A stretch of 64,000 bases of DNA, from contig DASRBN010000032.1 in assembly GCA_035653615.1 (NCBI GenBank), forward strand, positions 1 through 64,000, read 5' to 3'. This DNA comes from Ktedonobacteraceae bacterium. GTDB taxonomy: Bacteria > Chloroflexota > Ktedonobacteria > Ktedonobacterales > Ktedonobacteraceae. The translations under genes and the position numbers were made by a program. The notes below the pieces were generated by a model that saw only the letters and a program-made list of their open reading frames with translations, was not told the origin of the DNA and ran no database searches. Below, piece after piece: positions 10,431 to 12,431 of the stretch. The number at the start of each line of letters is the position of its first letter. Position 1 is the first letter of the stretch.

Positions 10431-10435
10431 TTGAA

Positions 10436-10510
10436 GTAGGGAAACACGAATTTTTCAGGCAATGAACCGGCGGGCGAGGTTCATTGCCTGAAAAATTCGT
10501 GTTTCCCTAC
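10436..10510 (+). terminator. 33-bp perfect stem terminator with U-tract
   Basis: Arms 10436-10468 and 10478-10510 are exactly complementary over 33 bases with a nine-base loop, followed by TTTTTT at 10511-10516. This is far longer than a typical intrinsic terminator. Confidence 0.85.
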
Positions 10511-10687
10511 TTTTTTCATTCCGCTTCGAATTATTCCCCTTATTCAAGAGATTTGCCCTCTTGTTGCCTAAATAGTACGCAATAAACATACCCAATATTC
10601 CTAATCAGGGCATCAACATTGGCATATCATCATGCATAAAGGTATACTTTACACAACCCCCTCAGACAAATAGCGGGAGATGTAAGT

Positions 10688-11478: not shown

Positions 11479-11515
11479 AATGAGGGCTGGACATTGCGAG
11501 CATCCAGCCCTCATT
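11479..11515. terminator. 13-bp hairpin, bidirectional
   Basis: Arms 11479-11491 and 11503-11515 are exactly complementary, with CTTTTCTT following on the plus strand. It ends the histidine kinase transcript. Read from the other side, it would end the candidate minus-strand RNA described next. Confidence 0.7.
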
Positions 11516-11911
11516 CTTTTCTTACCCACAGCTCACATGTTCATCCAGGCAATACATTTTTAAGAGCTCAACGCAGGATGAAGATGTTGCTGAAAGGCCC
11601 AGGTTCTTCAAATGCCCGCCTCTACGGGCACTCCTAAGTAACCTGAAAGACCATTCCTAGTAAGCGAACCGGTATCTTCATAGGTTCGTTAAGCCTCCTT
11701 TCGGCTTCCCTACTCAAACCTTTCGCTGTAATCCAGGTTTCTGACGTTCAGTCGATCTGTTTGCCCGCCTTCACGGGCACTGCTAATCGATCTGAAACAC
11801 CATTCCTAGTAAGCGAACCGGTGTCTTCATAGGTTGCATCAAGCCTCCTTTCGGCTTCCCTATTCAGGACCTTCGCCCTAGTAGAGCCAGGGGTCTATTT
11901 GCATCCCTGGT
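11479..11911 (-). ncRNA. Candidate structured RNA with two tandem repeated modules
   Basis: Two similar units, about 11613-11720 and about 11763-11868, are spaced by 150 bases. Shared blocks include CCATTCCTAGTAAGCGAACC and AAGCCTCCTTTCGGCTT (plus strand). Each unit, read on the minus strand, can fold into AAGCC/GGCTT, CCTA/TAGG and GCCCG/CGGGC hairpins. An outer stem differs between copies but still pairs: CAGGTT/AACCTG in one and CAG-TCGAT/ATCGA-CTG in the other. That compensatory change argues for RNA structure. A TTGCAA-17-TACAAT promoter lies at 11946-11918 on the minus strand, and the hairpin at 11479-11515 would end the transcript, giving about 430 nt. No good ORF is present. I could not match it to a known riboswitch or ribozyme. 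Confidence 0.5.
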
Positions 11912-11917
11912 GTCTAT

Positions 11918-11946
11918 ATTGTAATACAATCGCTTCGCGATTGCAA
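11918..11946 (-). promoter_or_regulatory. Minus-strand promoter for the candidate RNA
   Basis: On the minus strand TTGCAA (11946-11941) and TACAAT (11923-11918) are 17 bases apart. Expected transcription start is near 11911, right at a 6-bp hairpin (11887-11892 with 11905-11910). Confidence 0.5.
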
Positions 11947-12431
11947 GTTGAACAATAGGAAGGGAGTGGGTTTTCCACCCGCAACTGTCAAAATCTACAG
12001 GTTGGTCCCGTTCATTTTACCTGCCCAAAAACCGTCGAAAATAGCGGTGCGCTTCGCCGGAATCGCGGCTATACTTACATCGTGCAGAGGAATCTGCCGG
12101 CACAATCCTACGATTGGTGAGGCGCTGATTGTGGAACCCGGCGCGGCACCGATCGTTCATGGAGAGCGTTGTACATCTGCGTGCGAGGCGGAACAGTGGG
12201 AAAACTTCCTGGCGTACCTGATAAACTAAAAAAGGTAGCGCCAGGAAAAAGCCCCGGATGTTTTCTTATGGAGGCGCCATCGGATATGGCGTCGAGGGTT
12301 GTGCCGGCAGGGACCAGACATAGCACCATTTCGTTCACGGGAAACCGGCATCAGGAACACGTACATACCCTACCTGTGTGCATGTCACGCGAGGGAATGC
12401 ACGCATGCATGAAAAGGAGGAAAGATCACAC
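11947..12431. other. Intergenic region without a supported gene
   Basis: Two overlapping open frames on the plus strand (from 11948 and 12169) lack coding character and run into the next gene in another frame. Only the strong ribosome site AAAAGGAGG at about 12413-12421, which serves the DUF4177 gene, stands out. Confidence 0.5.

Follow-up and report, generated by a model that had tools for sequence, protein, structure and literature searches.

We propose, with moderate confidence, that a tandem locus on the minus strand of the DNA analyzed here (a 64,000-nt stretch, hereafter the window) belongs to a new family of RNAs that encode a micropeptide and probably have a dual function, the peptide probably acting in trans. 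Judged by sequence, nearly all sequenced species of the Ktedonobacteria, a class of large-genome, filamentous, sporulating Chloroflexota, retain the peptide and an adjoining RNA hairpin, and no described family matches them. Most species carry one long copy, in which the open reading frame (ORF) sits within a covarying structured RNA of ~350 to 400 nt, and the window locus is best read as a recently duplicated short paralogue of this class-wide micropeptide gene. A gene that is almost universal in its class has probably been overlooked, its protein being 15 to 18 residues long and its RNA present in no family library. The family offers a clear opportunity to test how a micropeptide and a structured RNA evolve together; in its peptide-only paralogues, which occur naturally and include the window locus, the two components are set apart. 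There is also a warning here: where a loop is conserved and a stem varies, the cause can be coding sequence.

Organization of the window locus

Two pairs of repeat blocks define the minus-strand modules, one of 74 nt (11613–11686 and 11762–11835; 88% identity) and one of 36 nt (11691–11726 and 11841–11876; 86% identity), at a spacing of 149 to 150 nt. A sequence-only reading of this region had described a functional structured RNA with conserved loops, formed by two modules that fold alike in a noncoding gap between a promoter and a terminator. The repeat is real, and the common fold is borne out: the folding energy of the 447-nt minus strand is −172.3 kcal/mol (z = −6.0), a value matched by none of 100 shuffled sequences. 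The outer stems proposed in that reading also form in the fold around an inner hairpin in both modules, as CAG(A)TCGAT with ATCGA(C)TG in module A (11745–11794), where the 5′ arm is the last codons, Q-I-D, and as CAGGTT (Q-V codons) with AACCTG in module B (11596–11645). The noncoding gap did not hold: within each module lies a short ORF, and the homologues of this ORF show selection at the protein level. What stands is a functional structured transcription unit; its conserved block is better described as coding sequence than as RNA loop.

Read 5′ to 3′ on the minus strand, the predicted transcript of ~435 nt follows a sigma-70-type promoter-like sequence, TTGCAA-17-TACAAT (11946–11918), with 9 of 12 matches to the consensus. 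One such site was found against 1.1 expected by chance, which is not significant alone; support for it comes from the long forms, all 20 of those examined having a similarly placed TTGAC[A/T] promoter. Two hairpins precede module A: CCAGGG..CCCTGG (11887–11910), whose long-form counterpart, helix 2, has 100% of alignment cells paired and includes a G-C to A-U change, and the small AGGGC-GAA-GGTCCT (11866–11879), whose counterpart, helix 3, has two-sided changes in four of five pairs. In module A, the Shine-Dalgarno sequence GAAAGGAGG (11837–11857) occupies the loop and the 3′ arm of an AAGCC/GGCTT hairpin and is followed by the ORF MQPMKTPVRLLGMVFQID (11783–11839), in which a second in-frame ATG would give MKTPVRLLGMVFQID. 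The hairpin TGCCCGTGAAGGCGGGCA (11762–11779), the counterpart of long-form helix 7 (100% paired), lies 3′ of the stop. By sequence, module B repeats this plan, with the Shine-Dalgarno sequence GAAAGGAGG (11687–11702), the ORF MKIPVRLLGMVFQVT (11634–11681), and the hairpin TGCCCGTAGAGGCGGGCA (11613–11630) 3′ of the stop. A further hairpin of module B, GAACC/GGTTC, was considered as a mask of the start codon and rejected, being absent from the homologues. A terminator-like hairpin with a 16-bp stem lies at 11516–11478, common to this locus and a convergent histidine kinase gene.

The locus is flanked by this kinase gene and by a gene with a weak DUF4177 match. No gene lies downstream on the same strand in the window, and beside most long forms lepA (EF4) is convergent (tail-to-tail downstream in 22 of 36 long loci, a proximity that may reflect inherited gene order only); thus, there is no cis-regulated gene. 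Gene orientation was accordingly our reason for rejecting a riboswitch or cis leader of a neighbor. A leader peptide or ribosome-arrest attenuator for a downstream gene would fit the short ORF, the strong Shine-Dalgarno sequence, and the constant spacing between the ORF end and the hairpin, and the F-Q-I-D of the peptide presumably recalls the F-N-I-D of TnaC, which we take as a lead only. We nevertheless give attenuation very little credence, given the lack of a codirectional downstream gene, the terminators directly behind, and the variable position of the stop codon.

As the sequence-only reading had proposed, the modules were compared with Rfam, and no family matched them; at the gathering cutoff, there was no match anywhere in the window or in 12 homologous loci, and matches in the region below the threshold (E-value cutoff) were noise.

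Two other features of the window were recorded. On the plus strand at 12094–12310, upstream of the small gene with the weak DUF4177 match, a 16-nt inverted pair forms the closing stem of a 217-nt multibranch fold; the surrounding 251-nt stretch reaches −119.8 kcal/mol (z = −7.5; 0 of 200 shuffles). It has partial DNA matches in five relatives and no Rfam match, and we regard it as a candidate for a separate structured-RNA element. Between a 70-amino-acid ORF and the histidine kinase gene lies a 35-bp inverted repeat (10434–10512) whose arms match perfectly around a 9-nt loop; it is found once in the genome.

The conserved block as coding sequence

Set side by side, the homologues share one module plan. 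A strong Shine-Dalgarno sequence (GAAAGGAGG), present in all those aligned, is followed by an ORF of 15 to 18 codons that begins ATG AAG AAA CCA ATT CGC and encodes MKKPIRLLGMVFQID before a stop; an almost invariant hairpin, GCCCG-nnnnnn-CGGGC, then stands at a fixed distance after the ORF end. The two window peptides are near-identical (K-x-P-V-R-L-L-G-M-V-F-Q-(I/V)-(D/T)). Across 43 distinct 14-codon cores, the entropies at codon positions 1, 2, and 3 are 0.54, 0.23, and 1.20, and the residues K-P-I-R-L-L-G-M-V-F-Q are conserved as amino acids while their third positions are free. Pooled dN/dS over the 43 distinct copies is 0.21 in frame, whereas the two alternative frames give 0.66 and 2.85; these values come from a directly scripted Nei-Gojobori calculation that ignores multiple hits and relatedness and in which synonymous differences are saturated, and they are thus indicative rather than fitted. 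Such a codon pattern is hard to obtain otherwise and therefore points to selection on the peptide. By this pattern, the conserved block encodes a peptide of 15 to 18 amino acids, whose residues are kept while third positions vary; a peptide of this size is out of reach of standard family searches. The loop block CCATTCCTAGTAAGCGAACC, described earlier as unchanged between the modules, is indeed conserved, the reason being that it is the reverse complement of coding GGTTCGCTTACTAGGAATGG.

The codon pattern bears most directly on the interpretation first given to this locus, that of a purely noncoding regulatory RNA or riboswitch. The strong folding and the covariation seen in long forms speak for that interpretation; against it stand the codon test and, for a riboswitch in particular, the gene orientation and the lack of an Rfam match described above, and we consider it very unlikely.

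Three features count against the micropeptide reading. A peptide by itself would have no need of so heavy an RNA structure; one of the three Thermosporothrix short copies has ATC where ATG is expected; and the end of the peptide varies, with the stop directly after D or after an added K, R, xECP, RVGP, or 16 to 21 residues, which is unusual where a C terminus matters. In three long forms (L005 in G005, L065 in G042, and L067 in G045), both the stop after D and the one in the hairpin loop have been lost, leaving a run-on of 16 to 21 residues (QERPWKRAYRPSPERLIVPCL, RPRPFKRASRVAAPAV, and RGRPVKRANRAAAPTA, respectively). Frameshifting or stop read-through, suggested by members in which TAG is replaced by CAG or AGG and a stop stands in the hairpin loop, was rejected: the loop stop is not universal, and the −1 frame looks open through the hairpin in several members as a consequence of the invariant stem.

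Other modes of peptide action were also weighed. Small tandem ORFs in a structured mRNA would suit a type I toxin-antitoxin peptide, but the peptide is short and charged with no membrane-spanning stretch, a search of the opposite strand at the window locus found no antisense promoter, and almost all genomes of the class have the gene, mostly in single copy; of the explanations considered, this is the least credible. Alternatively, the product may be secreted and serve as a pheromone, a signaling peptide that a receptor in the cytosol detects, an idea favored by the short, tandem, near-identical peptide genes and the divergent paralogues within one genome. However, the peptide has no signal sequence, no exporter, protease, or TPR-regulator gene adjoins the short or long loci, and the long form is single copy and nearly universal, unlike fast-evolving pheromones; we judge this explanation improbable.

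Distribution and two forms of the gene

In a DNA search covering 61 genomes of relatives, 22 carried the module. The module sequence model R1 matched 44 of 47 Ktedonobacteria genomes, including all 14 of the best assemblies, and none of 353 other genomes from the phylum; the class sample is small (n = 47) and its genomes are related, such that the covariation and dN/dS counts overstate independence. The three negative genomes (G008, G039, and G043) are all incomplete, fragmented assemblies, and a recheck under a laxer filter gave one match at E = 0.2. A pattern scan of named genomes returned 31 stretches, none of which came from outside the Ktedonobacteria or Chloroflexi MAGs; the genera represented were Ktedonobacter, Dictyobacter, Thermogemmatispora, Thermosporothrix, Tengunoibacter, Ktedonospora, and Ktedonosporobacter. 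The window genome has two loci only, the second being a long copy on a separate contig (L002). The concern that the modules might be an insertion-sequence end or another dispersed mobile repeat was dismissed on the basis of this low copy number, the lack of a module match in viral contigs, and conserved synteny, the long orthologue usually lying beside lepA.

The 5′ part of the long form comprises the promoter, three hairpins upstream of or overlapping the Shine-Dalgarno region, the ORF, and the hairpin; the 3′ part is a long, imperfectly paired helix (CCYCTGAGCG...CGCAGRGG) that contains internal hairpins, followed by the terminator, before which lies a conserved stretch, ACTCGGTTGA...ACACGGGAGTTGTG. 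RNAalifold applied to 16 long forms predicted 55 pairs, 19 of which have two-sided changes, and 37 cells change on both sides, compared with 10.2 ± 2.6 in shuffled alignments (0 of 500 shuffles) and 5 to 13 with slid partners, all counted on one alignment with the structure derived from that same alignment. Homologues with covarying stems, which the sequence-only reading had anticipated, are thus found among the long forms. On this modeled structure, the long form is probably dual function, acting as both peptide and RNA. One genome, G019, holds two long-type loci, L009 (G019:C879) and L037 (G019:C528); L009 has no recognizable promoter or 5′ hairpins and is either a second copy or contamination.

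The short form, to which the window locus belongs, consists of a promoter, one to three ORF-plus-hairpin units, and a terminator, the large 3′ RNA domain being missing. It was found in eight genomes: the window genome (two units), G004, G010, G011 (three units), and four of the Thermogemmatispora type (g13). The second Lys, present in all 36 long-form cores, is absent from all 8 short-form cores, where T, I, V, or L is found instead, and a short-form model scores short copies at 79 to 98 bits and long copies at no more than 65, with the exception of one short copy truncated at a contig end. lepA adjoins none of the short loci, which share no common neighbor gene. In Thermosporothrix hazakensis (L008, 300–560), the first of three tandem units has ATC at the position where the others have ATG or GTG as start codon; the first is perhaps decayed. 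Since the short paralogues have lost the 3′ domain and kept the peptide and hairpin, their sequences argue that the peptide, together with its hairpin, makes up a self-sufficient functional core.

Pairing of the last codons with downstream RNA

Both forms use RNA downstream of the ORF as a pairing partner for its last sense codons; this is the outer stem of the sequence-only reading. In the short form of the window, the Q-I-D and Q-V codons pair just behind the stop hairpin, and the basis for a conserved structure in this form is the two-copy covariation of the outer stem only. The first Thermosporothrix unit has the same stem in a different sequence (GTGAGC/GCTTAC), and in some other short copies the stem is shorter or shifted. 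In the long form, predicted helix 6 joins the I-D codons to a conserved 3′ UCGGUU element ~230 nt downstream of the ORF-end codons, a pairing that closes the large RNA domain; 96.8% of cells are paired, with one-sided changes only. Furthermore, ATT encodes Ile13 in 24 of 27 long forms, compared with 18 of 29 for Ile4 (P = 0.03, ignoring relatedness). Helix 6 and this codon bias support, but do not prove, an RNA-level demand on the codons at the end of the ORF.

The strongest rival explanation takes this pairing as its starting point. The RNA would be the actor and the ORF its switch, with translation opening the last-codon helix and toggling the RNA domain and the peptide being incidental. Helix 6, the pairing of the same codons just downstream in the short forms, and the Ile13 bias are consistent with such a switch. 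However, the K-P-I-R-L-L-G-M-V-F-Q residues upstream of the paired codons are kept as amino acids, the short paralogues retain the peptide without the 3′ domain, and helix 6 lacks two-sided changes. We therefore regard an incidental peptide as possible but doubtful.

Proposed model

In the model that we favor, a micropeptide encoded by a probably dual-function RNA, the short bicistronic gene on the minus strand would give rise to the ~435-nt transcript. Ribosomes would load at the two strong Shine-Dalgarno sites and produce two near-identical peptides of 15 to 18 amino acids. A ribosome reaching the end of the ORF would melt the outer stem, whose 5′ arm is formed by the last sense codons, and would stop just before the invariant hairpin; the outer stem would re-form once the ribosome departs. 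The peptide would act in trans within the cell, as it bears no evident signal for export and neither a modification enzyme nor a receptor is encoded beside it. Transcription of the window locus, translation of the ORFs, trans action of the peptide, and translational gating of the RNA are all inferred here. A bolder version, which we advance only tentatively, is that each round of translation opens and resets the class-wide RNA through a closing helix made of the final codons, that peptide and RNA are both functional, and that peptide-only paralogues split off in some lineages.

Comparison with known systems

Several bacterial small RNAs also encode a peptide, including RNAIII (delta-hemolysin), SgrS (SgrT), and Spot 42 (SpfP). 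Like these dual-function RNAs, the transcripts described here have their own promoter and terminator, carry a conserved short ORF in a structured RNA, and have no downstream gene. Two hallmarks of such RNAs are found: a short peptide under selection (dN/dS of 0.21 versus 0.66 and 2.85) and, in the long form, an RNA structure conserved independently of coding (19 of 55 pairs; 0 of 500 shuffles). They differ in sharing no sequence with the known examples, in belonging to another host lineage, and in placing the last sense codons in a conserved helix. The long form also resembles tmRNA in being a structured RNA of ~350 to 400 nt with an internal short reading frame that is nearly universal in its class, but ARAGORN found no tRNA-like domain in it and normal tmRNA genes are present elsewhere in the same genomes; tmRNA was therefore rejected.

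Among the open-license papers searched, nothing relevant was found on the peptide string or on Ktedonobacteria small RNAs, and the RNA-seq data in PMC6776052 are from Thermomicrobium, not Ktedonobacteria. Two described kinds come close. The odc1 (uORF-25-1) motif of alphaproteobacteria encodes a conserved peptide of 11 amino acids in a conserved RNA structure containing the ribosome-binding site and precedes a main ORF, its presumed regulatory target (PMC8632094). The present RNAs likewise encode a conserved short peptide inside a conserved structure that includes the ribosome-binding site; unlike odc1, the transcript stands alone, with no downstream gene. Genome-wide surveys of structured RNAs also recognize an sORF category, defined by a conserved stop, coding-like conservation, and a position not suited to regulating a main ORF (PMC11109978), the main text of which mentions no Ktedonobacteria or Chloroflexi sequence. 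The peptide gene agrees with this description but, unlike those candidates, is accompanied by extensive covarying RNA structure. None of these closest described kinds has a sequence or genomic setting in common with the RNAs reported here, which, on the sequence comparisons, are a new family.
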